NCBI RefSeq assembly: GCF_002715865.1
Contig: NZ_CP017696.1
Location: forward strand, 372,001-436,000
Direction of reading: 5' to 3'
Length of the DNA stretch: 64,000 nt
Source of the DNA: Bifidobacterium asteroides DSM 20089
Lineage (GTDB): Bacteria > Actinomycetota > Actinomycetes > Actinomycetales > Bifidobacteriaceae
Position 1 is the stretch's first letter. Every line of letters starts with the position of its first letter. The position numbers and the translations under genes are program-made. Below are positions 1 to 41,672 of the stretch, piece after piece. Below the pieces are notes generated by a model. The model searched no databases. It worked only from the letters and a program-made list of their open reading frames with translations, and was not told the DNA's origin.

Positions 1-3000
1 CTGCGCTGATTACCGGAGCCAGGTTAAACTCCACCAACATCGGGACATAGGCATTTTTGTTGCTGTTGTTGCCGAGTTGACCATACTTGTTGTATCCCCA
101 CCCATATGTGTATCCATCCTTGCCGATAGCCAGGGAATGCCAGTTTCCAGCACTGACGAGAGTGCTGTCAAGGCTTAGATCGGTGTTATTTGGGGATGCA
201 GGATTTCGCACCTTTGCTGGCTGGTTGTGGCCTCGAGAATCGTCATAATTAGTATAGCCAAGTTGGCCATAAGTGTTTCGTCCCCACGACCATGCAATTC
301 CATTGATGTCAACGGCTAGGGAAGTGTCGTATCCCGCACTGACTTGGCTGGCTTTGAAAGGGATACTGGGATTGTCGGGATTGTATACTCGAGCTGGGGA
401 AAGAATATCCTCATTCGTCGTATTCTGTCCGAGCTCGCCCCAATAATTCCATCCCCATGACCAGGTGTTCCCTTGGGCATCGATAGCAATGGAATGTTCA
501 AAACCGGCGCTGATTTGAACGCTTTTTAAGTTTTTGCTTGTATCGTCGGGATTGTTCGGGTCGCGCACGCGCACAGGAACAGGATTCGCGCCATCGAAGC
601 CGCTTGTGACATTGTTGCCAAGCTGGCCGTAACTGTTGAATCCCCAAGCCCAGGTATCCCCGTCCCTGTCAATCGCTAATGAGTGAGCTCCTCCGCCAGC
701 TACTTTTAATGCCACCAGCCCTTTGCTTGCATCCGTAGGATGTTCTGGATCGCACACGCGTACGGGAGCACTCGAGTAGCTGCTGCTGGTGCCGTTGCCG
801 AGCTGACCGTTCCTGTTGCGGCCCCATGCCCAGACATTACCTTCCTTGTCGATTGCCAGTGAATGCTCGCCTCCGGCGTCAACCTGTATGGCCTTCAGTC
901 CCGTATTTACGTTGGAATGTGTAGAAGGATCACAGACACGCACGGGAACAGTTGAATAGCCGCCGCTGGTGTTGTTGCCGAGCTGGGCATATGTATTGTC
1001 TCCCCAGGCGTATACGTATCCGTCGCTGCCCAAGGCCAGTGAATGCCGGTATCCGGCGCTGACCTGTACATAGGTGAAGTCAGCCGACACGCCTGCTGGC
1101 TTTTTCACCTGGACCGGCGTGTTCTGCTGGGTGGTCATCCCGTTGCCGAGCTGGCCAGACCTGTTGTCTCCCCATGCGTACGCGTTACCGTCACTGCCTA
1201 CAGCCAAGGAAACGCTATTTTGCATGACGACAGATCCAATTGAATTACTAATTTGGTTGAATTTAACGCCGCTTGTGCTGTCTGGTGGGGTGATGGTGGT
1301 GGTTTCGTTGCCGAACTGGCTGCCCTTGTCGGGGTTTATGGTCCATGTTGTCCTGGGTTTTTTGCTGGTCCAGCGGGCGGTGAGGGTGATGTTTTTTGTG
1401 ACGGGTTTGCTGAAGTCGTAGGCGGTGTTGCCGGTGAACCATCCGTCGAACTGGTAGCCTTCGCGCGTCGGGTCTGGGTAGGGCCGCTGCACTCGCCCGT
1501 ACGGGTAGGGAACCTGTTGGGGTTGGGGCGCCTGGCTTCCTCCGGCTGTGTCGAAGCTGACCGTATATGCGGAGTTCTGTCGGATGTCTCTGGTCAGAGG
1601 CTGGTCGACCGTGTACGTAAGGCTCCTGGTGAAGGGCTGGTTGTCTTGTTTGCCGGTGATAACAATGGTGGCCTCTCCTGGCGTGTGGGCGGGCATATCC
1701 GTCTGCCAGGCATCGTTGCTCTTGTTGAGTGTCAGCGGCTGGCCGTCCATGCTGGCTGATTCAAGGATGGGTGTTGTGGTGGTGCTGAGTCTGGCTGGCT
1801 GGCCGGGCCGGCCCTGCCCGTCCAGGCTCCATGCGAACATGCTGCCTTGCCTGCTGACGGCGGTAATCCTGTCACCTGCAAGGACGGCCTGCGTGTATGT
1901 CTGGTTGCTGTTGTCCACACGGATGGGAGTTCCGGCTATCTTCCAGAACCAGACGTGGCCCTCCTTGTCGGTGATGACGGCCTGATTCTTGTCGGTGCTG
2001 ATCCTGCTTGCTTTTATGCCCTCCGGCAGGCTGACGGTTGTCGGTTTTGTTGTGCTGTCAACCAGGTAGTAGATTTGCCCGTCCTCGCTTAGGAGGAGAG
2101 ACCCTTGATTGAGGGATTGGGCTTGGACGATACGCATGCCCGGGTCCTGCTTGATGCGTTCGGGCTCGACGTTGCCGGTGTTGCTTGTCTCCCGGGTCCA
2201 GGCCTGCCCGTCTGTGTCCACGATGAGGATCCGGCTGCCGGATGCGACGGCAAGGACGGCCTGCCCCGGTTCGGGCAGGCTGATTGTTTCCTGTGCTGCG
2301 GGTTTCGGGTTCGGGTTTTGGCTGTCGGCCTGTTCGGCCTGGTAGGCGTGGATCTGTCCCTGCCGGTCCACGGCCAGGAGCAGGTCATTGTTGATGCTGA
2401 TGCTGGTGAACCCGGCATCCTGTCCGGTGTCCAGGAGCGTGGGCGCGGGTTGTTGGCTGGCCCAGGTGTAGATGTGCCGGTCGGATCCGATTGCGGCCTG
2501 CCGGCGGCTGCCTGCCGCGGCCTGCAGGTAGCGGAACCCGTCGGGAGCCTGGGCCGGGAAGGGCACCTGTGTTGTTGTGCCGTCTTTCGTCCATGTGTTT
2601 ATGCGGCCGTCGCCGGTCACGCCGACGGTTTGGTCTCCTGCCGTGCGGATGCTCGTGTAGTAGGGCTCCTGCCTGTCGGGCGGGCTGATGGTCAGCCTGG
2701 CGCCGGTGGCGGGCCCGTGCTCCGGGCTCAGCCGCCAGTCCGTGGTCTTCGTCCATTTGGCTTTCAGGGTTGTGTCCTGCAGGATCGGAGCCTGGACGTC
2801 ATAGGGCTGGCCGTCAAGCGTCCATCCGTCGAACCGGAAGCCATCACGTTGAGGGTTGTGTTGCGGGGGAGTGGCGAGGGTGCCGGTCTTCACGGTCTCC
2901 TGTGTGGGCGTGCTGCCGTCGGCGGGGTCGAAACGCACCGTGTGCGTGGCGCGATCAGCCGTCTTCTCTGTCGACTTGGCCGGAGCGGAGCCTGTGCCCT

Positions 3001-3286
3001 CAGGTGTTCCCGTCGGCGGTGACGGGGTGTGCGGGCTTGGCGTTGCTGGGCTTAATGGCGGGGTGGCTTGTATCGGCGATGGCGAGGAAAGTGGGATATT
3101 TGATGCGTTGCCGGGGACAGTGGCGGGGGTTTGCTCAGCTACGCGAGGGGTCTGACGACCCCCCCCCCCCCCCCCGGTGAGTATGGGAGCGTCCGCCTGG
3201 GCGGATGCGACGCCCAGGCCTGCCAGCAGGCCCAGCAGGACGATCATCATCGCCAGGATGCGACGCAGACGGGAAACCAGATGCAT
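1..3286 (-). CDS. RCC1-A: phase-variable RCC1/InlB-repeat surface protein (3' end outside window; in frame with G17)
   Basis: Predicted secreted, wall-anchored repeat protein; ligand unknown. The start ATG at 3286 follows GAAGGGG by about 10 nt. Residues 1-33 form a signal peptide (MHLVSRLRR, then a hydrophobic core ending ASAQADA). Codons 38-43 lie in a run of 17 G (3159-3175), giving six Gly before RQTPRVAEQT. I checked the frame on both sides of the tract: signal-peptide codons, the RFDPADG of the first InlB repeat (near 2935) and the last codons at the window edge all begin at positions equal to 1 modulo 3, so the gene reads through as printed. A first InlB repeat (about residues 115-180), degenerate RCC1-like repeats, a second InlB repeat (near 1380-1560) and an RCC1 propeller (near 60-1250) follow. 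The last visible residues resemble the post-propeller segment of its paralogues, so only the C-terminal module and sorting signal should be missing. Closest relatives are RCC1-B, C and D. Confidence 0.85.
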   Translation of the reverse strand, partial: MHLVSRLRRILAMMIVLLGLLAGLGVASAQADAPILTGGGGGGRQTPRVAEQTPATVPGNASNIPLSSPSPIQATPPLSPATPSPHTPSPPTGTPEGTGSAPAKSTEKTADRATHTVRFDPADGSTPTQETVKTGTLATPPQHNPQRDGFRFDGWTLDGQPYDVQAPILQDTTLKAKWTKTTDWRLSPEHGPATGARLTISPPDRQEPYYTSIRTAGDQTVGVTGDGRINTWTKDGTTTQVPFPAQAPDGFRYLQAAAGSRRQAAIGSDRHIYTWASQQPAPTLLDTGQDAGFTSISINNDLLLAVDRQGQIHAYQAEQADSQNPNPKPAAQETISLPEPGQAVLAVASGSRILIVDTDGQAWTRETSNTGNVEPERIKQDPGMRIVQAQSLNQGSLLLSEDGQIYYLVDSTTKPTTVSLPEGIKASRISTDKNQAVITDKEGHVWFWKIAGTPIRVDNSNQTYTQAVLAGDRITAVSRQGSMFAWSLDGQGRPGQPARLSTTTTPILESASMDGQPLTLNKSNDAWQTDMPAHTPGEATIVITGKQDNQPFTRSLTYTVDQPLTRDIRQNSAYTVSFDTAGGSQAPQPQQVPYPYGRVQRPYPDPTREGYQFDGWFTGNTAYDFSKPVTKNITLTARWTSKKPRTTWTINPDKGSQFGNETTTITPPDSTSGVKFNQISNSIGSVVMQNSVSLAVGSDGNAYAWGDNRSGQLGNGMTTQQNTPVQVKKPAGVSADFTYVQVSAGYRHSLALGSDGYVYAWGDNTYAQLGNNTSGGYSTVPVRVCDPSTHSNVNTGLKAIQVDAGGEHSLAIDKEGNVWAWGRNRNGQLGNGTSSSYSSAPVRVCDPEHPTDASKGLVALKVAGGGAHSLAIDRDGDTWAWGFNSYGQLGNNVTSGFDGANPVPVRVRDPNNPDDTSKNLKSVQISAGFEHSIAIDAQGNTWSWGWNYWGELGQNTTNEDILSPARVYNPDNPSIPFKASQVSAGYDTSLAVDINGIAWSWGRNTYGQLGYTNYDDSRGHNQPAKVRNPASPNNTDLSLDSTLVSAGNWHSLAIGKDGYTYGWGYNKYGQLGNNSNKNAYVPMLVEFNLAPVISA
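3159..3175 (-). repeat. Poly-G tract (G17) in RCC1-A, in-frame state
   Basis: Seventeen consecutive C on the plus strand (G on the coding strand) sit directly after the signal-peptide codons. Flanks are ACC before and TCGTCAGACCCC after on the coding strand. Lengths equal to 2 modulo 3 keep the frame; gain or loss of one or two G would stop translation soon after the signal peptide. Confidence 0.9.
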
Positions 3287-3968: not shown

Positions 3969-6900
3969 TTACTCGTGAGAAATGTTTGACAACTTGTGTT
4001 GTTCTCTCCTGTGGCGGCGTGATGCCAGGACCCCTCCCATGCCGGTCATGCCGGTGGCCAGGGCGAGCAGGATGCCCTCCCCTCCGGCGCGGGGAAGCAC
4101 GCCTGCAGGCAGGTATGTGTACGTCAAAGAGGTGTCGGTCAGGGTGCGTCCTGCACCGCCCATCGTGTAGGCGACGCTGACCGTGACCGGGCCAGGCAGG
4201 TGTTCGGGCGTGAGCACAGTGACGCTGTTGTTGCTTATATGGCTCAGGTTCGTGGCGGGGCTGGTATCGAAGGTAACGCCGTTGATTACCGGAGACAGGT
4301 TGAACACCACCGGCATGGGAGCCGGGCTCGGGCTTCCTGCGTCGGGATTGCCGATTGCGCCATATCGGTTGTCTCCCCATGCTCTGGCATATCCGTCCGT
4401 ATCGATTGCCGAAGAATGAAAGTAGCCGGCACTTACTTGCGCGACTTTCAGCCAGGGGCCGGCTGAGCTAGTGGATTGCGCGGAGGCGAACACCCTTACA
4501 GGAGAATACCGGTTGTACCCGGCGTTGTCACCAATCTGATTGTAGTTGCTGATTCCCCATGCCCAGGCGTTTCCGTTTGTGTCGATAGCCAACGTGTGAC
4601 TGTCTCCGCCGCTGATCTGTATGGCTGTCACTGTGCCCGCATCCGTCGGGTATCGCACCTTTTGGGGAATAGGATTCGGGTCATCGCCGCTGTTGCTGCC
4701 ATTGCCGAGCTGACCAGCGATGTTGCGCCCCCATGCCCAGGTGTTCCCGTCTTCATCGATAGCCAGCGCATGCCAGCCGCCGGCGCTCACCTTGGTCGCT
4801 TTCAGCCAGGGGCCCGCAGCAGCCGTGGATTGGCTGGAACTGAATACACGCTTGGGTGTTGGGTGCGCGGTATTGGTATTAAGCCCGTCGCTCGTATTGT
4901 TGCCGAGCTGGCCGTAGTTGTTGTAGCCCCAGGCGTACACGTAATGGTCCTGGCCGATGGCGAGATTAAAAGACCATTGAGTGCCTATCTGCAGGGCATG
5001 AAAGACCCCGCTCGCATCAGCAGGGTCCATGACCGCGGCGGGGACGGTCTGCTGGCTTGTGTATTGACCGTTGCCTGCGGATAAGCTTCCCCAGGTGTAC
5101 ACGGTTCCGTCGGCACCCAGCGCCATGGAGCTTCGCATTCCGGTGGAGACCTGGATTGCTTTTAGACCTGTACCGGAGCCGTTTGGGCTGTGTACGCGCA
5201 CAGGGACTGACGAATTCGCTGTGGTGTTGTTGCCGAGCTGGCCGAAATCGTTATTCCCCCAGGCGTACGTGTATCCGTCGCTGCCGATGGCCAGCGAGTG
5301 GTAGCCGCCTGCAGCGACCTGTACATAAGTGAAGTCGGTCGGCACGCCTGCAGGCTTTTTCACCATGACCGGCATAGTCCGGTTGGCGGTCGTCCCGTCG
5401 CCGATTTGGCCAAAGCCGTTGTATCCCCAGGCGTAGGCGTTCCCGTCGCTGCCCACAGCCAGCGAAAACCCCATCAGATCATTCATAACGTATCCGCCGG
5501 CGCTGATCTGGTTGAATCTGATGCCGCTGGTGCTGTCTGGTGGGGTGATGGTGGTGGTTTCGTGGCCGAGTTGGCTGCCCTGGTCGGGGTTGATTCTCCA
5601 GGAGGTGTTGGGGGTTTTGCTGGTCCATTTGGCGGTGAGGGTGAGGTTTTCTGTGACGGGTTTGCCGAAGTCGTAGGCGATGTTGCCGATGAACCATCCG
5701 TCGAACTGGTGGCCTTCGCGCACCGGGTCGGGGGTGGGGCGCCGGACCCTGCCGTAGGGATAGGCGACCTGCTGGGGGCCGGGTGTCGGGCTCCCTCCTG
5801 CCGTGTCGAAGGTGACCGTGTGGGTGGAGGCCGGTCTCGTGTCTCTTAACAGGGGCTGGTCGACCGTGTAGGTGAGGCTTCTGGTGAAAAGCTGGCCGTC
5901 TTGTTTGCCGGTGATAACAATGGTGGCTTGTCCGGGTTGGCGTGCGGGAACCTCCGTCTGCCAGGCGTCGCCGGTCTTGTCGGGTGTCAGTGGCTGGCCG
6001 TCCATGCTGGCTGTTTCAAGGATGGGTGTTGTGGTGGTGCTGAGTCTGGCTGGCTGGCCGGGCCGGCCCTGCCCGTCCAGGCCCCACGTGAACATGCCGC
6101 CCTGTCTGCTGATGGCGGTGATTCTGCCGCCCGTAGCGGCGGCCTGCGTGTATGGCTGGTTCCCGTTGTCGGCGCGCATGGGTGTCTGGCCGGGCTTCCA
6201 GGCCCAGACCTTGCCGTTCTTGTCCGTGATGATGGCCTGGCTGTCGTTGCCGGTGATTTTGCTGGCTTTCAGCTGTCCTGGCAGGCTTAAAACTGTGGTG
6301 CTGGTTGTGCTGTCGGCCAGGAAATAGGCCTGCCCGTCAGTGTCCAGGAGGAGGAATCCCTGGTTGAGGGCCTGGGCCTGGATGATGCGCGTGCCCGGTT
6401 CCTGCCTGATGGGTTCGGGCTTGGCTTTTACCGTGTTGTTCGTGTTCCGGGTCCAGGCCTGCCCGTCCGAATCCACGATGAGAATCCGGCTGTCGGAGGC
6501 GGCGGCGGTGACGGCCTGCGCCGGTTCGGGCAGGCCGGTCGTGGCCTGTTGTGTGAATTTCGGATTCGGATTCCGGCTGTCGGCATCGCTGGCCTGGTAG
6601 GCGTGGACTTGTCCTTGACGGTCCACGGCCAGGAGCCGATTATCGTTCATGCTGATGCTGGTGAACCGGGTGTCTGGGCCGGTGTCGAGGAGCGTGGGCG
6701 CGGGTTGTTGGCTGGTCCAGGTGTAGATCCGCTGGTCGGATCCCAATGCGGCCTGCCGTCGGCTGCCTGCCGCGGCCTGCAGGTAACGGAACCCTTCGGG
6801 AGCCTGCGTGGGGGAGAGCACCTGTTCGGGAATGCTGTCCTGTGTCCAGGTGTGGATGAGGCCGTCCCCGGTCAGGCCGAGGATCTGGCTGCCTGCGGCC

Positions 6901-7532
6901 TGGATGCTCGTGTAACAGGGTTCCTGCCTGTCGGGCGGGCTGATGGTCAGCCGGGTGCCGGTGGCGGGCCCGTGGTCCGGGCTCAGCGTCCAGTCCGTGG
7001 TCTTCGACCATTGGGCTTTCAGGGTCGTGTCCTGCAGGACGGGGGTCCGGAAGTCGTAGGGCTGGCTGTCAAGCGTCCACCCGTCGAACCGGAAGCCCCC
7101 ACGCACAGGGTTGTGTTGCGGAGGGGATGCTAGGGTGCCGGCTTCCACGCTCGCCCGTGTGGGCGTGCCTCCGTCGTCTGGGTCGAAGCGCACCGTATGG
7201 GAAGTTTGAGTATCTGTTTTTTCGGCTGATTTGACCGGAGCGAGGTCTGTGCCGTCTTTATTGATTGTCGTCGATGATGGAGTGCTTGGACTCGGTGTTG
7301 CGGAACCTAATGGTGTGGTGGTTTGTATTGGCGAGGGCGAGGGCAGTGGGGTGTTGGCTGTGCTGCCGGTGGGGATGCCGGGGGTTTGTCCAGCTGTGTG
7401 GGGGGTCTGGCGGCCCCCCTTGATGGATGGGGGAGCGTCCGCGTCGGCGGTCGCGGCGCCCAGGCCTGCCAGCAGGCCCAGCAGGAGGATCGTCGTCGCC
7501 GAGGCGCGACGCAGTCGGGTTCCCTGATGCAT
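3969..7532 (-). CDS. RCC1-B: RCC1/InlB-repeat cell-wall protein, sorting signal LPRAG
   Basis: Predicted secreted, wall-anchored protein of 1187 aa. I chose the ATG at 7532 (MHQGTRLRR) because GAAAGG precedes it and it aligns with the family start; an upstream in-frame ATG at 7649 would only add a non-signal extension. Residues 1-31 are a signal peptide. SIKGGRQTP at about 36-44 sits where RCC1-A has its Gly run, but the DNA tract is only G6. InlB repeats lie at about 112-175 and 567-635, each ending in a (F/Y)DGW...YDF...LTAxW pattern. Degenerate RCC1-like repeats fill 200-480; a full propeller of repeated AxGxxHSLAIGSDG-YAWG-NxxGQLG blades fills about 670-1090. The C-terminus has LPRAG, a hydrophobic stretch and an RRHRR tail. 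The ligand is unknown; bacterial RCC1 propellers usually bind proteins. Confidence 0.88.
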   Translation of the reverse strand: MHQGTRLRRASATTILLLGLLAGLGAATADADAPPSIKGGRQTPHTAGQTPGIPTGSTANTPLPSPSPIQTTTPLGSATPSPSTPSSTTINKDGTDLAPVKSAEKTDTQTSHTVRFDPDDGGTPTRASVEAGTLASPPQHNPVRGGFRFDGWTLDSQPYDFRTPVLQDTTLKAQWSKTTDWTLSPDHGPATGTRLTISPPDRQEPCYTSIQAAGSQILGLTGDGLIHTWTQDSIPEQVLSPTQAPEGFRYLQAAAGSRRQAALGSDQRIYTWTSQQPAPTLLDTGPDTRFTSISMNDNRLLAVDRQGQVHAYQASDADSRNPNPKFTQQATTGLPEPAQAVTAAASDSRILIVDSDGQAWTRNTNNTVKAKPEPIRQEPGTRIIQAQALNQGFLLLDTDGQAYFLADSTTSTTVLSLPGQLKASKITGNDSQAIITDKNGKVWAWKPGQTPMRADNGNQPYTQAAATGGRITAISRQGGMFTWGLDGQGRPGQPARLSTTTTPILETASMDGQPLTPDKTGDAWQTEVPARQPGQATIVITGKQDGQLFTRSLTYTVDQPLLRDTRPASTHTVTFDTAGGSPTPGPQQVAYPYGRVRRPTPDPVREGHQFDGWFIGNIAYDFGKPVTENLTLTAKWTSKTPNTSWRINPDQGSQLGHETTTITPPDSTSGIRFNQISAGGYVMNDLMGFSLAVGSDGNAYAWGYNGFGQIGDGTTANRTMPVMVKKPAGVPTDFTYVQVAAGGYHSLAIGSDGYTYAWGNNDFGQLGNNTTANSSVPVRVHSPNGSGTGLKAIQVSTGMRSSMALGADGTVYTWGSLSAGNGQYTSQQTVPAAVMDPADASGVFHALQIGTQWSFNLAIGQDHYVYAWGYNNYGQLGNNTSDGLNTNTAHPTPKRVFSSSQSTAAAGPWLKATKVSAGGWHALAIDEDGNTWAWGRNIAGQLGNGSNSGDDPNPIPQKVRYPTDAGTVTAIQISGGDSHTLAIDTNGNAWAWGISNYNQIGDNAGYNRYSPVRVFASAQSTSSAGPWLKVAQVSAGYFHSSAIDTDGYARAWGDNRYGAIGNPDAGSPSPAPMPVVFNLSPVINGVTFDTSPATNLSHISNNSVTVLTPEHLPGPVTVSVAYTMGGAGRTLTDTSLTYTYLPAGVLPRAGGEGILLALATGMTGMGGVLASRRHRREQHKLSNISHE

Positions 7533-8110: not shown

Positions 8111-11100
8111 CTAAGTTTGCGACAGCTGATGCCGTTTCTTCTTGTGGTGGCGGGAGGCCACCACGCTGCCCATGCTCACGACTCCTGTGACCAGGGTGAG
8201 CAGGATGCCTGCCCCGCCGGTACTGGGAAGCACGACTGTAGGCGCTGCGGGCAGGTACGTGTATCTGAGGGAGGTGTCGGTCTGGGTGTTTCCTGCGCCG
8301 CCCAGCGTGTATTTGACGCTGACTGTAACCGTGCCCGGCAGGTGTGCAGGCGTGGTCACGCTGGCGCTGCTGCCATCGCCGCGAATCAGATTTGTGCCGG
8401 GGCTGGTGTCGAAGGTGACGCTGGTGATCACCGGCTGCAGGTTGAACGCTACCAGAACGGGAGCAAGACTCCGGCTTCCTGCATTGGGATTGCCGAGCTG
8501 ACCGTACTGGTTGTCTCCCCATGCCTTGGCGTATCCGTTCGTGCCAATCGCCAGTGAATGCTGCCATCTCGCACTTATTTGCACGGTGTTCATCCAGGGT
8601 CCGGCCGAGCTCGTGGACTGCGCGGAGGCAAACACCTTTACCGGGGTATACCGATTGCTGGTGGTGTTGTCGCCGAGCTGGCCAAAATCGTTGCGCCCCC
8701 ATGCCCAGGTGTTCCCGTCCGTGTCAATGGCGAGCGCATAATAGCCTCCGGCGTTCACCTGCTTGGCGGTCACAGGGCCTGCAGTTACCGGGTATTTTAC
8801 ACGGACGGGGACAGGATTTGCATCGTATTCTCCGTTGCTGGTGCCATTGCCGAGTGAACCATACGTATTTTGTCCCCATGCCCAGGTGTTCCCGTCCGTG
8901 TCAATGGCCAGCGCATACCAGTATCCAGCGCTCACCTGCACCGCCTTCAGCCAGGGGCCCGCTGCAGCCGTGGACTTGCTGGAGGCGAACACGCGGCCGG
9001 GCGTCGGGTTGAAGATGTTGGCACTGGTCCCGTTATTTGTGTTGTTGCCGAACTGGCCGTTGGTGTTGTAGCCCCAGACGTACACGTAACCGTCCTGGCC
9101 GATGGCCATGTCGAAGGACCAGCCGGTGCTGATCTGTACGGCGTGGAAGACGCCGCTGGCATCCGATGAGTCTTTGACTGCAGCGGGGAAGGTTTGCTGG
9201 CTTGAGCCGTTACGATCGTATCCTTTGGATATGCTGCCCCAGGTGTATACGGTTCCGTCAACGCCTAGCGCCATGGAATTCCAGGCTCCGCCGGTTACCT
9301 GGATGGCTTTCAGGCCTTCACCGGAGTTGTTTGGCCCGTGCACGCGCACAGGTAGCGACGAATTGGATGTGGTGTTGTTGCCGAGCTGCCCGTGGTCGTT
9401 GAGCCCCCAGGCGTACACGTACCCGTCGCTGCCGATGGCCAGCGAATGATAGCCTCCGGCAACGACCTGCACGTAGGTGAAATCCGTGGGTGCGTCTGCA
9501 GGCTTCGGCACCGGGACGGGTGTGTTCTGCCGGGCGGTCGTACCGATGCCGAGCTGGCCGAACTTGTTGTTGCCCCAGGCGTAGGCGTTCCCGTCGCTGC
9601 CCACAGCAAGCGAATACCCCGTCTGATCAGCGAAGAGGTATCCTCCGCCACTGGCCTGGCTGAACCTGATGCCCCGGCTGGTGTTGGTTGGCGGGGTGAT
9701 GGTGGTGGTTTCCTTGCCCAGCTGGCTGCCCTTGTCGGGGCTGATGCTCCACTGGTTGTTCTGTTTGGTGGGTGTCCAGTGGGCGGTCAGGGTCAGGTCC
9801 TTGCTGACAGCACTGCTGAAGTCGTAGGCGACCTGCCCGATAAACCATCCGTCAAACTGGTAGCCTGCGCGCGTCGGGTCGGGGGTAGGCCGATGGATCC
9901 TGCCGTAGACTGGCTGGATGCTCTGGTCCTGGGGGGTCGGGCCTCCTTCGCCCGTGTTGAAATGGACCGTGTATGTGGAGTCCAGTTGGCCGTCTCTGGT
10001 CAGGGTCTGGTCGACCGTGTAGTTGAGGCTTCTGGTGAAGGGCTGGCTGTCCTGCCTGCCAACGATGAGAATAGTGGTCTGCCCTGGCTGGCGGGCGGGT
10101 GTGTCCGCCTGCCAGGAGTCGTTGTTCTTGGTGAGTGTAAGCGGCTGGCCGTCCATACTGGCTGATTCCAGGGTGGGCGCCTGTGTGGTGTTGAATCTGT
10201 CTGGTTTGCTTAGCTGGCCCTGATCGTCCAGGTTCCACTGGTATAGGCTGCCCTGCCTGTTCACGGCGGTGATTCTGCTACCGATGCGGACCGCTTGCAT
10301 GTAACGCTGCTTTCCGTTGTCTGCGCGGGTGGGCGTCTTGCCGGGCTTCCAGGCCCAGACGTGGCCGTCCTTGCCGGTAATCATGGTCTGATCCCCGTTT
10401 GCGGCGATCCTGCTGGTCTGCACGCCGTCCGGCAGACTGACTGGGGTCATGCTGGCCGTGTTGCCGGCCTGGTAATAGGCCTGCCCGTCCGCGTCCAGGA
10501 GGAGGAACCCTTTGCTGAGGGCTTGGGCCTGGATGATGCGGATTCCGGGGTCTTGTTTGATGCTTATGGGTTTGGTTTCTTCATTGTTGGTCGTATCCCA
10601 TATCCAGCCTTGTCTGTCGGAGTCCAGTGCCAGAGTTCGGCTGCCAGATGCGACGGCGAGGACGGCTTGCGCCTGTTCGGGCAGGCTGGTTGTAGCCTGT
10701 TCGGCGAGTTTTGGAGTCGGATTCCGGCTCTCGTCTTGGTCATCTTGGAAAGCGTGGACGCGGCCCTGTTGGTCCACCGCGATGAGCCGGCCGCCGTTCA
10801 TGCTGATGCTGGTGAACTGGATGTTCGTGCTGGGGTGGAGAATCACGGGCTTGGGCTGTTGGTTGGTCCAGGTGTAGATGTGCTGGTCGGATCCTAATGC
10901 TGCCTGCAGTCGGCTGCCGGCTGCGGCCTGCAGGTAATGGAACCCGTCGTCGGCTTGGATGGGAAAAGGTGCCTGTTCAGGTATGTTGTTTTGCGTCCAT
11001 GTGTAGATGCGGCCGTCACCGGTCAGTCCGACAGTCTGCTCGCCTGCAGTTTGGAGTCTGATGTAGTAGGGTTCCTGTCTGTCGGGCGGGTTGATGGCCA

Positions 11101-27851: not shown

Positions 27852-28025
27852 GATGGCTGCGAACCCCTTTCCCCAAACAGGTGGCTCGATGATGAAAATC
27901 CCCAAGTCGCTTCACGAGACGTGTGCCGGGGACCATCCCGACAGCTGCATTGCAGTCTATCACGCGCGGACGGGCAAGATTGAAAGCAACACCCGGGTGA
28001 ATGCAACACCCGGTTGAATAAAGAA

Positions 28026-28128: not shown

Positions 28129-31100
28129 CTACTGATTCAGGCTTCCGGCCTTTCTCAGGTGTCGCGCTGCCATGGTTGCCATGATGATGAGCAGACCAAC
28201 GGCGAGGGGCAGGAATATGCCGGTGCCGCCGGCCCGGGGCAGGACGCTGATGGAGGTGTACAGGTAGATGTTGCTGGTGTCGGGGAGTTGCGTAACCCCG
28301 TTCAGTGTCCAGTCGATGGTTACCGTAACCGGCCCTGGAGTGTAAGGCGGAGTGGTCACATTCCAAGTGCCGTCATTGTTGGCGGTCGGATAAATTCCGC
28401 TCGTATCGCCGAACTGAACGAGTTTGGGAATGCCGACTCCAGGGAAGATGACCTTGCCTGGATGCGAATCCTGGTCGCCGCTTGTGTCGCGTCCCAGTAC
28501 ACCGTCGGCGCTCTTTCCCCAGCTGTAGGTGTTGCCGTCTGATCCTATGGCTGAGGAATGATTGTCTCCTGCCTGAGGCTGGATGAGGGTGATGCCGGCT
28601 GGAGCCTCCAATTTGGTGGGCATGTAGTCGGATTTATCACTGATGTCACGTCCAAGTTGTCCGTAATCGTTGTATCCCCAGCTGTAGAGGTTGCCGTCCG
28701 ATCCTGCAGCGATGGCAAAGTACCTTCCCGCCACAAACCGGGTGAAGTTGATGCCTGAAGGCATGATGACATTGGAAGGGTACATAGATATCATTTGCGC
28801 ATTCCCCAACTGACTTTTTAAGCCGTTCCCCCAGCTGTAGAGATTGTTGTCGGAGCCGAGAGCCAGCGAGAAGTTCAGGCCCGTGCTGGCTTGCGTAAAA
28901 GTGATGCCGGCTGGGGCCTGAACTTTGCCTGGCAGAGGGTCGCCTAACGCAGTTAGCGCATTACGTTGGCGGCCCAGTTGGAACGAATCATCGTATCCCC
29001 AGCTGTAGAGGTTGCCGTCTGAGCCCAGAGCGAGGACATGCTTGCTTGATGGCCCTGTGAAAACCTGGGTGAATGTGATGCCTTCGGGTGCAACTACTCT
29101 AAGAGGATTTCTGCTCGTGGCTCCTATCCTTCCTTGCCCTAGTGCGCCTGCCGAATTGTCTCCCCAGGCGTAGAGGTTGCCATCTGAGCCTAATGCCAAG
29201 GCGAAGCAATCGCCCGCGTAGACTCGAGTGTAATGGATGCCCGCAGGCGGTGTGACTTTGTCAGGGGCATTGTGATTGTTGCCAAAGGTGGATCGGCCCA
29301 GCTGATCATAGGTGTTGTTTCCCCAGGTATATACATAGCCGTCTGAGCCAAGGGCCAAGGCGAACTTTTGTCCTGCAGCGGCCTGGGTATAGCGGACTCC
29401 GGCGGGGGTCTCCACCACGACAGGCTTATCTGAGGTGGTGTGTCCAAGTTGGTAATCATAATTGATTCCCCAGCTGTAAAGGTTGCCGTCTGAACCGAGA
29501 GCCAGGGAAAAATCAGCTCCCGATTGGATCCAGGAGAAGCGGATTCCGCGTGTGCCTTGCGGCGGGGTAAGTTTGACGCTCTGACCGCCTGTTTGCGGTC
29601 CCTCCTTCTTGTCGATGGTCCAGTGCGAGACGGGACTGAAGTGGGCTGCCAAGGTGATGTCCCCGGAGACGGGCTGGTTGAAGTCGTAGGCTATATTGGA
29701 GTCGCCCTTGGAATCTTTGAGGAACCAGCCGTCGAACAGATAGCCGTCCTTGGCTGGATCCTTGTCGGGGCGGACGGCCTGATCGCCATCCATGACCCGC
29801 TGGGCCTCTGGTGTTGGTGTACCGCCCGCGCTGTCGAAGGTGACTGAGTACGTTGAACCATCATACTTGTAAGGCAGGTGTGCATCGGGCTGATGGCCGT
29901 TCCTGGCCCAGGCGACCGTCACGTCCACCTGGCCTTTTCTATGTGCAGGGGTGCGGAAGTTCCAGGTGCCGTTCTGGTTCTTGGTCAAGTCGGTAATTGG
30001 GGCTCCATCCAGCTTGGCGCTGATGAATTTGAATGCTTGTGGGAAGTCTGCCTTGCTAGGGGTGGTTACTGGCACACCGCTGGAGGCACCGGTGCCCAGC
30101 TGGCTGCTGCTATTGTCGCCCCAGCCGTAGAGGTAGCCGTCCGAGCCCATGGCCAGGATGTGCCTGTACCCTGCAATGGCCTGGGTATAGGTGACGCCGT
30201 CGGGGGTGACCGCTTTGCCCGGCTGGTTTGTGGTTTCACCACCCGTATCTTGTCCCAGCTGGCCGCTGCTGTTGTCTCCCCAGCTATAGATGTTGCCGTC
30301 GGAGGCAGTTACCAGGGAGTAGTCGTGTCCGGCGCTGATCAGCCTTGTTCTGATGCCGTCAGGCAGAGCTACCTTGCTGGGCTGGCTGGTGCCGCCGTAC
30401 CCCCAGCTGTATGTATTGCCATCTGAATCAACGGCCAGTATGTGGCGGTATCCTGCGCTGATCTGGCTGAAGTTCATGCCGTCCGCCGTAGTCATCTTGT
30501 ATGCCCGATTGGCCGGTTCACTGGCGCTGGGTGTACGTCCCAGCTGGCCGCTGCTGTTGTCTCCCCAGCTGTAGACGCTGCCGTCAGATGCGAGTGCAAG
30601 GGAGGCCTTGCCGCCTGCGGTTACTTGGGTTATCTTTACGCCTTTTGGAAGCGACACCGGGTTCGGGTTCCCGGGCCCATAGTGGGTCATGGTACCGCCG
30701 ACTTCGCGTCCCAGCTGGCCGCTGCTGTTGTCTCCCCAGCTGTACACAGTCCCATCCGAGCATACGGCCAGCACATAATTTGGTCCTGTGCTGACTTGAA
30801 CAAAACTTTGAGTGGCATTTACAGATGGGATCACCTGATTTGGTGGGAGACTCGGTGAGGAGGAGATGCCTTGCCCTGCCTGGCCTTTTTCATTGTTTCC
30901 CCAGCTGTATAAATGGTGATTGATGTCGATGGCCACAGCGTAATCGTCTCCTGCGCTGATCTGGAGGAAGTGGGTGCCGTTTGGCACATCTACTCGTCCT
31001 GGCCGATCGGCGGGGTCGCTGTCAGTGGGGGTGCGTCCCAGCTGCCCTTGGCTGTTGTTTCCCCAGCTATATAGCACTCCGAGTGAGTCGAGGGCTAGCG

Positions 31101-31933
31101 AAAAGTCTTTTCCTGCGCTGAACTGGCTGAAACGAATATCTCCTATGGCCGGTGGAGTCAGGGTGGCTGTCGTGTTGCCGGCGGTAGGGCCATGATTGGG
31201 GCTAAGACTCCAGGAATTGAGGCCCTGGACCCAGTGGGCCGTCAGCTTGAGGTCTCTGGTGACGGGCTGGGTAAAGTCATAAGCGACATTCCCGATGAAC
31301 CAGCCAACAAAAGAATAGCCTTTGCAGTAAGGGTCTGGGGGACGTGTCACCCTGCTTCCAGGGCTGAGTATTGACTTTTGTGTTGACGAACCTATTGTGC
31401 TGTCAAAAGTTACTGTGTATGTTGTGGCAAGGCGTGGCCGGACCGAGTTTCCGCTGCTTTCGCTAACCTTGTCAGAATCTTTGGGATTATTTTCAGACGG
31501 GGTGGCCGTCGGAGCTGGGGAGGAGTCGGAAGAGGGATTCGGCTTGGTGGGATTCTGGGGTGCGGTAGTACCTGACGGGGAATCTGAAGTGCCCGGAGCA
31601 GTGGAAGGCGCTGAGGGCGCTGATGGTGTTGTTGAGGTTTTTGGGGTTGCTGTAGGTGAAGATGGTGTCGCAGGTTTTGTTGACGGGCTCTGCGAGTTTA
31701 CGGTGCTGGAGGAAGTGCCGGTGTTTTGTTTATCTACCCGAGCGGTCGGTCGACCCCCCCCCCCCGGTGCCATTTAGAGCAGTCTGCGCGCTCGCGCTGG
31801 CTGCTCTAGACTCGTTCGTGACTGGCTCGGCAGTAGCAGCAAGGCCAGTCAGAAGGCTGGTAGGCAGGATAATCGCGAGTAGAAGGCCAGCAACAGTGGA
31901 TGACCGAATCTGCTTGTTCCGACGATGACGCAT
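28129..31933 (-). CDS. RCC1-G: phase-variable RCC1/InlB-repeat surface protein, out of frame in this copy (G12), LPRAG
   Basis: ATG at 31933 (MRHRRNKQIRSS) with GAGGAAGGGG upstream opens a clean signal peptide (LLLAIILPTSLLTGLAATA) in one frame; the remaining ~1200 residues are open in another. The junction is a run of 12 G (31754-31765). As printed, translation runs through four Gly into STDRSGR and stops. One G fewer (G11), or two more (G14), would give GGGGRPTARVDKQNTG, matching GGGRQTPRVAEQT of RCC1-A, and a 1267-aa protein. No other interruption is seen: first InlB repeat, propeller of SLALASDGSVYSWGDNSSGQLGR blades, second InlB repeat, second propeller, LPRAG, hydrophobic segment. So this is a switched-off gene, not a dead one. 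A sequencing error in the homopolymer could also produce this appearance. Confidence 0.85.
31754..31765 (-). repeat. Poly-G tract (G12) in RCC1-G, off state
   Basis: Twelve C on the plus strand, preceded on the coding strand by AATGGCACC and followed by TCGACCGACC. G11 or G14 would join the signal peptide to the body, the same residue class modulo 3 as the in-frame G17 of RCC1-A. Confidence 0.9.
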
Positions 31934-32288: not shown

Positions 32289-34679
32289 TTAGGCTTGCAG
32301 GCTGCGGGCCTCCCGCTGGTGGCGTCCGGCGGCGGCGGCGCCTATGGCGGCCAGCAGCCCGGCGGCCAGCAGGACCATGGTCCCGCTGCTGCCGGCGTGA
32401 GGCAGCATACCTTCGTAGGTGTAGACCAGGTGTGTCTGGGGCTGGACGATCCCGCCCAAGGTCCAGTCCACGTTGACATCAGCCTGTCCTGGATTGTGGG
32501 CGGGGGTGGTCAGGGTGACGGACCCGTCGGAGTTCTGTTGCAGGGTGTCCACGGTTGTCTGGTCGAAACTGACACCGGTGATCAGCAGGACCGGGTTGAA
32601 GGCGACCAGGGCCGGAGTGCTGCTCTGTGTTGTACCCCCGTTGCCGAGTTGGCTGTATGTGTTGTCTCCCCAGGCGTAGGCGTTGCCGTCCTGACCTATG
32701 GCCAGGGAGTGGTTTCGTCCTGCGCTGGCGTGTGCTGCTGCGAATCCGCTACCGGCCTTGCCTTGGCCGACGGGCGGCGATACGCGCGTGGGCATGGGTT
32801 GGTCGCTGGTGTTCCCGTCGCCGAGCTGGCCGTCGGTATTCCATCCCCAGGCGCAGGCTGCGCCGTTCTGGTCGACGGCCAGAGAGTGATGCACGCCGGC
32901 GCTGATCCATGCGGCCTGCAATCCTTGGCTGGAGCCTGTGAGGCTTGTTACCTGCCTGGGGGAGGGTCTGCTGGTTTTCGTTCCGTCGCCCAGCTGTCCG
33001 TGGTCGTTGTATCCCCAGCTGTAGACGATGCCGTCGCTGCCGACGGCCAGTACGTGGTAGCCGCCTGCTGCGACCTGCGTGTAGGTAAATCCTGCAGCAA
33101 CGCCGTCGGGCAGGGGGACCTTGATCGGCGTTTTCTGCGTGGTGCTATCAGCGGTGCCTTGGCTGAGCTGGCCGTGCTGGTTGCTGCCCCAGGCGTAGGC
33201 GTTCCCGTCGCTGGCCACGCCCATGGAGAATCCGCGGAAGTCCCCGGCCTGATAGCCGCCGGCGCTGACCTGGTTGAAGCGGATGCCTCGGCTTATCTTG
33301 GGCGGCGTGATGGTCGCCTGCTGGCCGCCCAGGGAGCTGCCCCTGACCGGGTTGATCGACCACCCGCCGGTGTTGGCTGGGCTCCAGTGGGCGACCAGCG
33401 TGATGTCACCGGTGATTGGCTGGCTGAAGTCATAAGCCACATTGGAATTACCTTGGGCATCCTTGAGGAACCAGCCATCAAACAGACAGCCGTCTGCTTT
33501 TGGATCTGGATAAGGGCGTTTGATCTGCCCGCCCTCTATGACTGACTGGTCTGCTGGCATGCCTGAAGGTGTCGGACAGGCAGCGTCCGTGGATGTGAAT
33601 CCTACCGTGTATTTTGGCCCGGTGTAAGTGTAGGACAGGTATGCGTCCGGTTGCGGCCCGTTCATGCTCCAGGTGATGGTGACATTCACCCAGCCCTTGC
33701 TGTGCGGCGGAGTGGTGACGCTCCAGGTGCCGTCCGCGTTGGCGGCCAGCCCTGTGCCCGGTGCCACGCCCAAGCTGACCATAACTGCTGCTGCCCTAGC
33801 TGTACAGGTTCCCTTCTGAATCAAGGGCCAGGGAGTGATCGTAACCTGCACTGACCTGGATGAAGCGAAGTCCGGCTGGAGTGTCTTCCCTGCTTGGCTG
33901 CCAGTTGTAGTCGGAGCCATACATTTCTCCCCAGTGGTAGATGCTGCCGTCTGATCCCACTGCCACTGAGTATTGGTATCCTGCACTGAACTGGCTGAAG
34001 CGGATGGTCCGAGCAGGAGGTGCAGTAAGGGTGATAAGAGTGTGACCAGCTGTGGGGCCTTGAGCGGGTGAGAGGTCCCAGACATCACCGTTTTTGGTCC
34101 AACGGGCTTCCAGAGTCATGTCGCCGGTGACGGGCTGGTTGAAGTCGTAGGCGGTCAATGTGCCGCTGATGAACCAGCCATCAAACGAATAGTCGGGTCG
34201 GGTTGGGTCGTCAGGCCTCTGTGCTTGGGCACCTTCATCGACGGTCTGATCAGGTGTGGTGGTCCCGCCTTCTGTATCAGTGAACTTGATGGTGTACTGG
34301 GTGGCCGAGCGGGCCTGGGGGGTTTCGGCATTCGTGCTCGGCACGGCGGATGCCGTAGGTTGAACGGGCTCCAGGGGCGATGATGTGTGTAAAGGCGTTG
34401 GGGTGGCCAGTGGTGACTGGGGTGTTGCAGGTATGGTTGTTGGTGTTGCCTTACTCGGGGAAATGCCGGAATTTTGCTTGGCTACGCGAGGGGTTTGTCG
34501 ACCCCCCCCCCCCCGTGCCTCCTGTAGTGGCTGGCGCGCTCGTACCGGCCACAGCAGGCTCGCTGGCCTCAGTGCTGGCATCGGCGCTGGTGCCGGCAAG
34601 GAGGCCTAAAGGCAGAAACGGATAGCAGAAAACTGACTGCTACAGCTGGCCTGATCGACATGTGCTGATGCTGACGCAT
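32289..34679 (-). pseudogene. RCC1-H: decayed RCC1/InlB-repeat surface protein (G13 tract plus fixed lesions), LPHAG
   Basis: Four defects are visible. (1) From ATG 34679 the signal-peptide frame slips near the TTT at 34608-34610 and meets TGA before the tract; one T fewer would give ALGLLAGTSADAS. (2) The tract is G13 (34502-34514), one more than needed to join that frame to RQTPRVAKQNSG. (3) TAG at 33796-33798 replaces the TGG of a blade motif (NLYS-stop-G). (4) Right after it most of the first propeller is deleted and the frame shifts into SLGVAPGTGLAANADGTW. The rest (InlB repeat, five to six blades, LPHAG, hydrophobic tail) is one intact frame. Lesions 3 and 4 cannot be undone by tract slippage, so this is a pseudogene unless the C-terminal half is expressed alone or donates sequence to paralogues. 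Confidence 0.85.
34502..34514 (-). repeat. Poly-G tract (G13) in decayed RCC1-H
   Basis: Thirteen C on the plus strand, preceded on the coding strand by ACAGGAGGCAC and followed by TCGACAAACCCCTCGCGTAGC, nearly the same 3' flank as in RCC1-A. G12 would be in frame with the preceding hydrophobic segment. Confidence 0.85.
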
Positions 34680-37832: not shown

Positions 37833-40800
37833 TCAGTGCCGGCGGCTGCTGGTTTCTCGCTGGTGGGAGGCCGCTGCTGCGGCGCCTGCGGCGGCGAGCA
37901 GTCCTGCGGCGAGCAGGACCAGGAGGCCGGTGCTGCCGGCCCTGGGCAGGATGCCCTCATAGGTGTAGCCCAGGTGGGCGGTCGTCTGCGCGGCTTTGTC
38001 TATGGTCCAGTCGACGGCCACGTCGACGGGCCCTGCGTCATGGGGCGGGTTGGTGATGCTCCAGGTGCCATCGGCGTTCCGGTACAGGCTGGTCCCGGCG
38101 ATGCCGCCGAACCTGACGCCAGTAAGGACCAAAGGCGTCGGATCGAATGCAACCGGCATGGGGGTCGTGTTCCTGGTTGCCGTTTGATTATTTCCCAACT
38201 GCCCGTATTGGTTGTCTCCCCAGGCCCAGAGGTTGCCGTCCTGCCTGATGGCCAGTGAATGGAGTTGTCCGGCGCTGCTCCGAACGGCCTTGAATGTCTG
38301 GGCCTTGTTGGCGGGGTCCTTGATGGTCGCAGGCTTGGTCTGATTGACGGTGTTGCCGATGCCCAGCTGCCCGTTGCTGTTCCAACCCCATGCCCAGAGG
38401 CTGCCGTCCCGGTCGACGACAAGGGAGTGGTCCACACCCGCGCTGATCTGGGTGGCTTTAAGGCTTTGGCTGGTATCAGTAGGGTTCTGCACGGTTTGGG
38501 GCTTGTATTTGTCGCTGGTGCTGCCGTCGCCCAACTGACCGTACCCGTTGTATCCCCAGGTCCAGGTGTTTCCGTCCGTATCGATGGCTAAGGCATGCCA
38601 GCTTCCTGCGCTGATTTGGGAGGCCTGGAAGGACTGGCTGGGCAGTCGGGCCGGGTTGGATGCGTAGCTGGTGCTGTCGCTGGTGCCGTTGCCGAGCTGG
38701 CCGTTCGTGTTGTATCCCCAGGTGTACACGTTGCCATCAGCATCCAGGGCCATGACGAAGCTCCAGTTGAGGCTGACCTGGACCGCATGCAAGGTCTGTC
38801 CCGGATTGTCCGGGTCAGCGGCTGGAGTCGGGTTCTTCCTGGTCGTGCTGTATGCAGGCGTCTGGCCTTTGCCAGTGCTTTCGCTGCCCCAGGTGTAGAC
38901 GCGGTTTTCAGAGTCGATGGCTGCGGAGTCGGCGACGCCGGCGCTGACCTGGACGGCTTTGAATGGCTGGCCGCCGGTGTCCTTGACGGGCTGGGGATTG
39001 TACCGGTCCGTGGTGGTGCCGTCACCCAGCTGCCCGTGGTCGTTGCGTCCCCAGCTATATACGATTCCGTTTGATCCGATGGCCAGGACGTGCGAGTCAC
39101 CGGCTGCAACCTGCGTGTAGGTAAAGCTGGAATCCGCCCCGTCGGGCAGGGGGATTCTGACAGGAGTTTTTTGCATGCTGACGTCGGCCGGTTTCTGAGC
39201 AAGTTGCCCGTATTTGTTGTTGCCCCATGCGTAGGCGTTTCCGTCGCTGGCGACGCCGATGGAGAAGGAGCCTCCGGCGCTGACCTGGTCGAAGCGGATG
39301 CCCCGGTTGATGGTGGGCGGGGTGATGGTCACATGCTGGCCGCCGAGCACGTTGCCCTTGTCGGGGTTCAGGGCCCAGCGGGTGTCCATTCTGGTCCAGT
39401 GGGCGGCCAGGGTGATGTTGCCGGTGACGGGCTGGCTGAAGTCGTAGGCGATCTTGGAGTCGTTGTTGGCGTCCTTGGTGAACCATCCGTCAAACAGGCA
39501 GCCGTTTGCTTTCGGATCGGGGGAGGGGCGTTTGGCCTGTCTGCCTTCGGTGACGGTCTGGCTTTGAGGCATGCCGGAGGGTGTCGGGCAGGAGCTGTCC
39601 GCACTGGTGAAAGTGACGGTGTAGGAGTCCAGGTATCTGTAGGGCAGGTGGGCGTCCGGCTGCTGGCCGTTCAAAGTCCATGAGACGGCTGTGTCCACTC
39701 TTCCTCGTGCATGCGCAGGCGTGGTGACACTCCATGTGCCGTCAGCGTTCCTGGTTATGTTTGTGCCCGCCGTTCCACCGAAGCTGACCGCAGTGACTGT
39801 GGTAGTACCGGGCATGTTCACTCGGCCGGGGATATGACGATCGTTGGTGGTGTTGTCGCCCAGCTGGCCGTTGGCGTTTTTGCCCCAGGAGTACAGGTTG
39901 CCGTCTGAGGCCAAGCCGAAGGAGTTGTTGTCCCAACCGGCGCTTGCCTGAACCCAGGTCAGTCCAGTTGGCGCGTTCTGTGGCGCAGCAACCCGGATAG
40001 GGGTGTTTCGCTGGGTAGTGGTGTTGTCGCCCAGCTGGCCATTGTTATTGGCACCCCAGGAGTAGAGGTTTCCGTCTGAGCCAATGGCCAGTGATGCAAC
40101 AGATAGGAGGCTTACTTGTTTCCAAGAGAAATTAGGTAGCACTCCATTGGGTTTATGCGCTTGAGTTGGCCCGTACACGTCAACGGTGGACCCATTGCCA
40201 ACGTTGCCGTTTCCGCCGTAACCCCATGTATATATGTTGCCGTCGGATCCGATAGCTTGCGAGTAGTAGTCACCCATTTGGAACTGTCCCCAGGTGAAAT
40301 TGGAGGGAACACCTTGCGGTGTGGCAATTCGGACGGGCGTGATCTTATTATCGGTGATTGATCCTGTACCCACTTCACCACGGGTATTTGCGCCCCAGCC
40401 GTAGATCCAGTTATCCGATCCCAAGGCCAGAGAATGCCATCCCCATCCGCTCATCTGCTTCCATGCGAATCCGGAGGGTACTCCGCTTGGCATCTTCACT
40501 TGGATGGGGGCATGCCGTTCAGTGGTAGTGCCGTCCCCCAGTTGGTTATGATCGTTGTCGCCCCAACTGTAGAGGTTGCCGTCGGATCCCAGGCCAAGAG
40601 CATGCAGGCTACCTACCGCTTCCTGCTTCCATGTGAACCCGGATGGGGCATTTTGTGGCAAGTTAACAGGTTCGGGAGTGTAATGCGCGGTTGTAGTGTT
40701 GTTCCCCAACTGACCATAGGTGTTGTCGCCCCAGCTGTAGAGCTTGCCATCTGATCCCAGACCCACGGAGAACAAGTATCCGGCTGAGGCCTGGACCCAG

Positions 40801-41672
40801 GTAAAATCCTGGGATACGCCCTGGGGTTTCTTCACTGGGACCGGCTCATGACGTTCAGCGGTGGTCCCGTCGCCGAGTTGGCCATGATCATTGCTTCCCC
40901 AAGAGTAAAGGTTGCCGTCCGAGGCGACTGCAAGAATGTGCCCCCTTCCAGCGCTGACCTGGCTGAAGCGTATTCCTCGGGGTCCGGGCGGGGTCAGGGT
41001 GACTTTCGTGCCGCCGGCGACCGGCCCCTGCACGGGGCTCATGCTCCAGGCATCTGCCTTGGTCCAGTGGGCGGTGAGATTCATATCGTTGATGACGGGC
41101 TGGTTGAAATCGTAGGCGACGGGTGTTGAACCGATGAACCAGCCGTCGAACAGGTAGCCGTCTCGGGTTGGATCCGCTGGACGTTTCACACGCTCTCCGT
41201 CAGCTATGGTTTGTGTTGTGTCGATGCCTTGGGGATTGCTGAAGGTGACAGTGTGCGTTGTGGAGGCGCGCGCCTGCAGCTCGGCGCTGTCTTTCTCGTC
41301 GGGAGTGCTGGTCTTGTCCGGCGTGGGGGAAATGGATGGGGTCGGCTGTGTGGGATTCAGAGGGGAGAGTGTGGCCAGGGGAGATGGCGAAGTAGGAGCG
41401 GTTGCTGTTGGAATGTTTGCTGTTTCAGTTGGCTGGGTGGTGATGTCAGGAGGATTGCTGGACTTTTGTTCAGCTTCACGACCCCCCTCCTCCCCGCTAA
41501 TTCCAGGTGTAGTCGGCGCGACCGCGTGGGCCACGCTGGATTCGGTTGTGGCGCTGTCTGCTGTGGCATAGGTGCAGACCAGGAGGCTTGCGGGCAGGAT
41601 GATGGCCAGCAGGAGGCTGACCAACAAAGCCGGTCGAGCGGATATAGGTATATCAGAGTGCTGACGAGGCAT
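37833..41672 (-). CDS. RCC1-I: RCC1/InlB-repeat cell-wall protein, locked reading frame, LPRAG
   Basis: Largest member, 1279 aa. ATG at 41672 (MPRQHSDIPISARP) follows GAAGGGG by about 10 nt; upstream in-frame ATGs would precede the signal peptide and lack such a site. Signal peptide about 1-40 (LLVSLLLAIILPASLLVC). At the switch position the DNA reads as an interrupted G run (GGGGAGGAGGGGGG), coding SGEEGGREAEQKSS, so slippage should be rare and the gene is effectively fixed on. First InlB repeat about 125-195; first propeller of seven or more blades (about 215-630) with YSWGDNTYGQLG-type motifs; second InlB repeat about 690-760; second propeller about 775-1190; then LPRAG, a hydrophobic stretch and SHQRE tail. 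Confidence 0.88.
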   Translation of the reverse strand: MPRQHSDIPISARPALLVSLLLAIILPASLLVCTYATADSATTESSVAHAVAPTTPGISGEEGGREAEQKSSNPPDITTQPTETANIPTATAPTSPSPLATLSPLNPTQPTPSISPTPDKTSTPDEKDSAELQARASTTHTVTFSNPQGIDTTQTIADGERVKRPADPTRDGYLFDGWFIGSTPVAYDFNQPVINDMNLTAHWTKADAWSMSPVQGPVAGGTKVTLTPPGPRGIRFSQVSAGRGHILAVASDGNLYSWGSNDHGQLGDGTTAERHEPVPVKKPQGVSQDFTWVQASAGYLFSVGLGSDGKLYSWGDNTYGQLGNNTTTAHYTPEPVNLPQNAPSGFTWKQEAVGSLHALGLGSDGNLYSWGDNDHNQLGDGTTTERHAPIQVKMPSGVPSGFAWKQMSGWGWHSLALGSDNWIYGWGANTRGEVGTGSITDNKITPVRIATPQGVPSNFTWGQFQMGDYYSQAIGSDGNIYTWGYGGNGNVGNGSTVDVYGPTQAHKPNGVLPNFSWKQVSLLSVASLAIGSDGNLYSWGANNNGQLGDNTTTQRNTPIRVAAPQNAPTGLTWVQASAGWDNNSFGLASDGNLYSWGKNANGQLGDNTTNDRHIPGRVNMPGTTTVTAVSFGGTAGTNITRNADGTWSVTTPAHARGRVDTAVSWTLNGQQPDAHLPYRYLDSYTVTFTSADSSCPTPSGMPQSQTVTEGRQAKRPSPDPKANGCLFDGWFTKDANNDSKIAYDFSQPVTGNITLAAHWTRMDTRWALNPDKGNVLGGQHVTITPPTINRGIRFDQVSAGGSFSIGVASDGNAYAWGNNKYGQLAQKPADVSMQKTPVRIPLPDGADSSFTYTQVAAGDSHVLAIGSNGIVYSWGRNDHGQLGDGTTTDRYNPQPVKDTGGQPFKAVQVSAGVADSAAIDSENRVYTWGSESTGKGQTPAYSTTRKNPTPAADPDNPGQTLHAVQVSLNWSFVMALDADGNVYTWGYNTNGQLGNGTSDSTSYASNPARLPSQSFQASQISAGSWHALAIDTDGNTWTWGYNGYGQLGDGSTSDKYKPQTVQNPTDTSQSLKATQISAGVDHSLVVDRDGSLWAWGWNSNGQLGIGNTVNQTKPATIKDPANKAQTFKAVRSSAGQLHSLAIRQDGNLWAWGDNQYGQLGNNQTATRNTTPMPVAFDPTPLVLTGVRFGGIAGTSLYRNADGTWSITNPPHDAGPVDVAVDWTIDKAAQTTAHLGYTYEGILPRAGSTGLLVLLAAGLLAAAGAAAAASHQRETSSRRH

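Follow-up and report, generated by a model that had tools for sequence, protein, structure and literature searches.

The nearest described counterpart of the system treated here is the switch of sortase-dependent pili in Bifidobacterium breve and its relatives, which acts by slippage in a G tract (Penno 2022, PMC9187656). In that switch, signal peptide and body occupy two open reading frames (ORFs) split by a G run, 8-13 bases long in Table 1 of the paper, with in-frame lengths yielding an exported protein. The reference strain of B. breve carries an out-of-frame length, and pili were observed once the two ORFs were brought into one frame; two- and tenfold in vivo enrichment was reported for the two pilus loci of this species. 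The loci are pilin operons with a dedicated sortase, present at one or two G-tract loci per listed genome, and the search reported there was confined to pilus clusters. Here we describe a similar arrangement in the same genus: an array of nine large surface-protein genes in a 64,000-base window of Bifidobacterium asteroides DSM 20089 (bases 372001-436000 of a genome consisting of a single contig of 2,190,368 bases), whose products combine RCC1 domains with PF09479, the Listeria-Bacteroides repeat, and some of which carry a poly-G run between signal peptide and body.

The protein family itself matches one described from honeybee bifidobacteria (PMC3447821, PMC4449606), which shares PF09479 and RCC1 domains, a cell-wall signal and tandem clusters, with 19 or 7-24 copies per genome. 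In the available text of PMC3447821 the terms 'homopolymer', 'phase varia' and 'frameshift' are absent, as are 'homopolymer', 'phase' and 'frameshift' in that of PMC4449606, and we found no mention of a tract in either. Poly-G contingency loci of Neisseria and Mycoplasma agalactiae, cited in PMC9187656, likewise toggle a surface trait by intragenic G-run slippage, but belong to other host groups and other gene families. From the pilus switch, the present system differs in having up to 16 scored sites per genome, single large RCC1 proteins, a conserved post-tract element and module exchange; no pilus cluster with a dedicated sortase was found among the four non-family genes tested in the window array, and no search for sortases was made elsewhere in the genome. 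Both the protein family (2012, 2015) and bifidobacterial G-tract pilus switching (2022) are already published, and the mechanism is not of a new kind. An earlier note on this DNA, which knew of no such description for these proteins, did not mention the pili (PMC9187656). Open-access literature yielded, by title or abstract, no report linking the RCC1 family with G-tract switching.

The switch is real, widespread and well supported. Comparison among genome assemblies makes it very probable that the tract-bearing RCC1 surface genes are contingency genes switched by poly-G slippage. From the observed anatomy, frames, off-frame stops and length differences between near-identical orthologues, we propose that a poly-G run a few codons past the signal-peptide cleavage site would alter its length by replication slippage. 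At the usual site, a length of 2 modulo 3 (11, 14, 17) would put the signal peptide in frame with the body (ON), giving a large exported protein with PF09479 repeats, RCC1 propellers and a sorting signal. At other lengths (OFF), translation would stop 5-7 codons past the run, leaving the signal peptide and a short tail only, and downstream transcription would, by analogy with B. breve, be reduced. Because each copy has its own run, copies may differ in state and produce a mosaic of surface combinations; most sites, at G12, would lie one base from the ON length G11, and tract-less copies with their signal peptide in frame are presumably always on. The proteins are probably anchored at the surface and may bind host, diet or bacterial surfaces, adhesion or binding being the role we infer.

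Tract length and reading frame among related genomes

Close relatives of one window protein are encoded by Bifidobacterium asteroides, apousia, mellis, choladohabitans, polysaccharolyticum and mizhiense, which we take to be bee-gut species, in agreement with the two honeybee-isolate papers on the family. Of 27 genomes in the genus, 11, with DSM 20089 among them, gave the tract site in a pattern search (78 sites). As this search demanded GTAG after the run, off-frame stops were counted on a tail-unconditioned set of 84 sites from 11 genomes, with run lengths of 11 (14 sites), 12 (53), 13 (8), 14 (4), 15 (4) and 17 (1). Sixty-three sites are OFF, 19 are ON and two were left unscored. Seventeen of the 19 ON sites have a length of 2 modulo 3, the flank being shifted in the remaining two, and the body remains open for at least 700 codons in 62/63 OFF and 19/19 ON genes.

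Orthologues, defined as reciprocal best matches with at least 80% identity over at least 300 residues, form 16 groups, nine of which vary in tract length. The cleanest pair sets a G11 ON site (G007:C1:528521) against a G12 OFF site (G022:C5:748000), separated by two substitutions in 550 flanking bases, one in the 250 nt upstream and one in the 300 nt downstream. Orthologues of the gene at 625,950 in five genomes carry runs of 14 (ON), 13 (ON, with a shifted flank), and 15, 13 and 12 (OFF), and G11 and G12 are both present in the single-contig genome G018. The multi-locus, frame-switched family proposed in the earlier note thus gains support from its spread over genomes, from lengths that fall in all residue classes rather than only the in-frame one, from orthologues in opposite states, from open OFF bodies and from stopped off frames.

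The minimum number of changes on a FastTree tree built from 83 bodies is 15 for ON/OFF state (mean of 17.4 after shuffling, standard deviation 1.2; 23 of 300 shuffles as low) and 23 for tract length (28.5 after shuffling, standard deviation 1.1; 0/300 as low). State is nearly unstructured on this tree, whereas length retains history. Viral contigs supplied no further alleles, and plasmid records gave no match to the single query used (window 31000-34600).

Other G runs were met in the same survey. Three genomes carry a second run with conserved flanks near, and outside, RCC1 genes: G18 in L041 (618233), G14 in L122 (596531) and G10 in L152 (675135). Genome G002 (loci L190-L193, L196-L235) has 69 runs of at least ten G, of which 62 were examined; 38 fall within or at the stretch that codes for the signal peptide of a predicted secreted protein, 30 of them OFF (G11) and eight ON. 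Among three of its run-bearing proteins tested by Pfam, two are RCC1 and one is a leucine-rich-repeat protein. The 38 sites are all on the minus strand before 1 Mb (21/21) and all on the plus strand after it (17/17). Selection on length is not claimed for G002, as its other runs also measure G10-G12.

The post-tract element and the module seam

The 21 bases that follow the run are conserved as DNA across otherwise unlike genes. Between signal-peptide types 1 and 2 (46 and 24 genes), identity within this element is 96-100% per codon, against 34-54% upstream of the nearest codon and 17-86% downstream (ungapped), in a comparison that left out two of the 84 sites, whose tail does not start with TCG. 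Type 4, comprising five genes including window gene G, has a different tail (33-100% per codon versus type 1) that retains the off-frame stops. The pairwise comparison of flanks and bodies covered the 81 of 84 sites that were long enough, giving 3240 pairs; in 689 gene pairs whose flanks match poorly on both sides, the first 30 bases still reach a median identity of 0.90.

Several codons of the element are uncommon in the bodies: CGT at 75/84 sites (6.6% of Arg codons in bodies), GTA as its codon 6 at 82/84 (9.4% of Val codons) and GCT at 75/84 (9.7% of Ala codons). The order GTA-GCT-(G/A)A places TAG and TGA/TAA in the two off frames, and both are closed within seven codons at 81/84 sites. 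Among tract-less members, both frames are closed within eight codons in 6 of the 20 that could be anchored at the homologous place, from 45 listed after six frames without a signal-peptide-like start and frames of fewer than 600 codons had been dropped. Off-frame stops alone do not account for identity across all 21 bases, to which recent copying between genes may contribute. A conserved hairpin joining G tract and tail was rejected, being weak and not common to all types (z -1.57, -0.54, -0.56 and -1.70 for the four sequences folded).

Sliding comparison of eight chosen pairs located a change in similarity close to the switch: in G009/G019 and G004/G018 similarity is 80-100% between about -300 and about +60 and falls to about 50% beyond, and two other pairs show the reverse. 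Among the 3240 pairs, seven combine alike 5' parts with unlike bodies and eight show the opposite. The switch is therefore situated close to a seam at which signal peptides and bodies were exchanged as modules. Recombination among RCC1/Listeria-Bacteroides-repeat proteins was already inferred in PMC4449606; the position of the seam is new, as far as the examined literature shows. A further and tentative reading, which we rate as somewhat doubtful, is that the G run and its 21-base tail form a portable switch cassette of ~33 bases, kept as DNA near the seam of promoter/signal-peptide and ectodomain modules. Recombination would put different bodies under one switch and slippage would toggle each, perhaps combining phase and antigenic variation over a large share of the bee-group surface repertoire, by default OFF and one base from ON. 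The repertoire considered for this cassette comprises, in the asteroides group, as many as 16 scored sites per genome; in G002, whose runs fall within the signal peptide, about 38 secreted proteins bear the switch.

The window array and the family across the genome

Pfam finds both RCC1 and PF09479 in all nine large minus-strand genes of the window (A-I), as the earlier note had claimed for RCC1 blades and InlB-type repeats. Two PF09479 stretches are present in eight genes, and H has one in each of its two ORFs; a signal peptide is found by hydrophobicity scan in 8/9, including the signal ORF of G, which is off-frame at G12, and is broken in H. The putative sorting signal reads LP-x-A-G, not LPXTG, and comes with a hydrophobic stretch and a basic tail; among the nine genes only H gives a PF00746 match, the C-terminus of A lying beyond the window. 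An AlphaFold2 model of one body (mean pLDDT 76.7, pTM 0.50), whose C-terminal propeller blocks largely exceed a pLDDT of 90, resembles PDB structures of RCC1-type propellers, with UVR8 ranked first (TM 0.90 when normalised by the target, 0.32 by the query).

The graded series of tract states described in the earlier note is borne out, all genes and tracts being on the minus strand. Gene A (1..3286, its 3' end beyond the window) reaches left to near 371.7 kb of the genome and encodes a signal peptide, PF09479 and RCC1; its G17 tract (3159..3175, C17 on the plus strand) is in frame, and the gene is ON, with the signal peptide in frame with MHLVSRLRRILAMMIVLLGLLAGLGVASA. The DNA-conserved 21-nt element that follows (3138..3158) carries the off-frame stops. 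Gene G (28129..31933) is OFF, with an out-of-frame G12 (31754..31765, C12 on the plus strand) between signal-peptide ORF and body ORF, and a post-tract element of the divergent type (31733..31753) with both off-frame stops. Gene H (32289..34679) is decayed, its frame broken within the signal-peptide part and again mid-gene, and has a G13 tract (34502..34514, C13 on the plus strand). Long tracts are lacking in B (3969..7532) and D (12638..16222), which have G6 at 7414-7419 and 16104-16109, respectively, in B in frame with its own signal peptide and in D likewise in frame. In I (longest ORF 37833..41765), an interrupted G-rich stretch ends in G6 at 41482-41487, in frame. Genes C (8111..11638), E (longest ORF 20338..23913, likely start ATG at 23859) and F (longest ORF 24156..27905, likely start ATG at 27851) are tract-less, with no run of at least six at the homologous place.

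Counted on both strands of the window, G/C runs comprise twelve of six, one of seven, none of 8-11, and one each of 12, 13, 14 and 17. Because runs of 8-11 are missing and three of the four long runs share one homologous site, the tract runs are not the tail of a chance distribution. The fourth, G14 at 12261-12274, sits between D and C on the opposite strand and was rejected as part of the switch. Four non-family genes inside the array were tested, namely GH127, TetR and two ABC-transporter genes; the GH127 beta-L-arabinofuranosidase gene occupies window 17674-20097.

The genome holds 20 RCC1/PF09479 family genes at seven places, the largest cluster having ten; one extra gene, just left of the window, has a G12 tract at 371087-371098 of the genome and is OFF. 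Nine of the 20 have a tract of at least eight, and nine of the 36 genomic G runs of at least nine lie at the 5' end of family genes. Four family tracts are in frame (A, 625950, 1076517 and 288094) and four out of frame (371087, G, 1068265 and 1072371), the decayed H being unscorable. Lengths are more spread here, with G12 at only 2/8 standard sites. With dnaA at 1948780 (1.949 Mb), the GC skew of the examined stretches flips sign across dnaA and a second time somewhere from 0.85 to 1.06 Mb; a stretch at 1.108 Mb departs from this pattern, and the skew of another, at 0.281 Mb, is zero. Judged from these markers, all 20 genes, at 7/7 places, appear to be head-on to replication, on the lagging strand.

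Three further runs or groups of runs were seen. Orthologues of the RCC1 gene at 842 kb carry G10-G12 in six further stretches (L181-L185, L187) and G11 in G003, the copy in DSM 20089 having G6 only. A G9 run at L044:9345-9353 supplies its first G to the stop codon of an upstream ABC-ATPase ORF, and an FtsX/MacB-type permease ORF begins seven bases on. A 13-kb part of L047 (23-42 kb of the genome) has six G runs of 10-17 next to an alpha-L-fucosidase gene; three other ORFs near these runs gave no Pfam match.

Length bias, alternative explanations and meaning

Several observations weigh against switching by poly-G slippage. Exact G12 makes up 53/84 tracts, so the sequenced isolates do not show free random switching. 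Seven of the 16 orthologue groups are fixed at G12, an invariance that leaves the expectation of variable tracts across genomes only partly borne out; tract length carries phylogenetic signal; and four genomes have no ON site (G020 0/16, G009 0/6, G022 0/5, G025 0/1). Homopolymer lengths in assemblies can be wrong, and signal peptides were assigned by hydrophobicity scan rather than a dedicated predictor. Slips in G runs should escape repair, since the genome gives no MutS_V match and its NucS is of a kind reported unable to correct indels (PMC8228993); no search aimed at MutL was made.

The bias is specific to the family. G12 is found at 59 of 94 known RCC1-family sites (the 84-site set plus ten others, six and four) versus 27 of 193 other runs of at least ten G in the same 11 genomes, with a Fisher p of 1.2e-16 that is overstated, as related sites are not independent and some of the 193 may be family sites. 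A general length optimum at G12 was rejected on these counts. By frame class alone the OFF bias is not significant against the expected one-third (19/82 ON, p = 0.06; G002 8/38, p = 0.12), and the bias therefore sits in the exact length: family runs are kept at, or come to rest at, a length one base away from ON. Such an excess agrees with a switch that is OFF by default, like that of the reference strain of B. breve, and at the same time provides the strongest argument against free random switching.

The same family-specific mode would suit an improbable alternative in which OFF alleles still yield product through slippage of RNA polymerase or the ribosome on the run, so that G12 is a constant low-level setting and no genetic OFF state exists. 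Folding of four post-tract sequences weakly predicts a hairpin with the G run in two (z -1.57 and -1.70), the remaining two folds giving -0.54 and -0.56. Near-identical orthologues nevertheless stand at G11 and G12, lengths of 13, 14, 15 and 17 also occur, and B. breve pili were seen with the ORFs put in frame and were absent in the parent (PMC9187656). We consider it equally improbable that the tracts are slow-changing relics or products of gene conversion, with G12 inherited and OFF genes becoming pseudogenes like H. The decay of H, the seven groups fixed at G12 and the phylogenetic signal in length would all agree with such a history; the open bodies of 62/63 OFF genes, the off-frame stops retained across unrelated signal-peptide types and the tracts in further RCC1 genes (L039, the orthologues of the 842-kb gene, G002) argue against it. 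Long G runs are hard to call, and the lengths could in principle be assembly or sequencing artefacts. That explanation is very improbable given a run at the homologous site in 11 genome assemblies, a length distribution that differs between RCC1 and other runs of the same assemblies, and the joint presence of G11 and G12 in G018.

The gut community of which bee bifidobacteria form part is simple and host-adapted. If poly-G slippage does switch the RCC1 genes, independent switching of surface proteins would allow strains to vary their surface with no need of regulation, and the mostly OFF state of sequenced isolates would explain why the family may escape notice in culture. It would thereby become testable whether conditions in the gut select for ON variants, as the in vivo enrichment of B. 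breve pilus loci suggests (PMC9187656).

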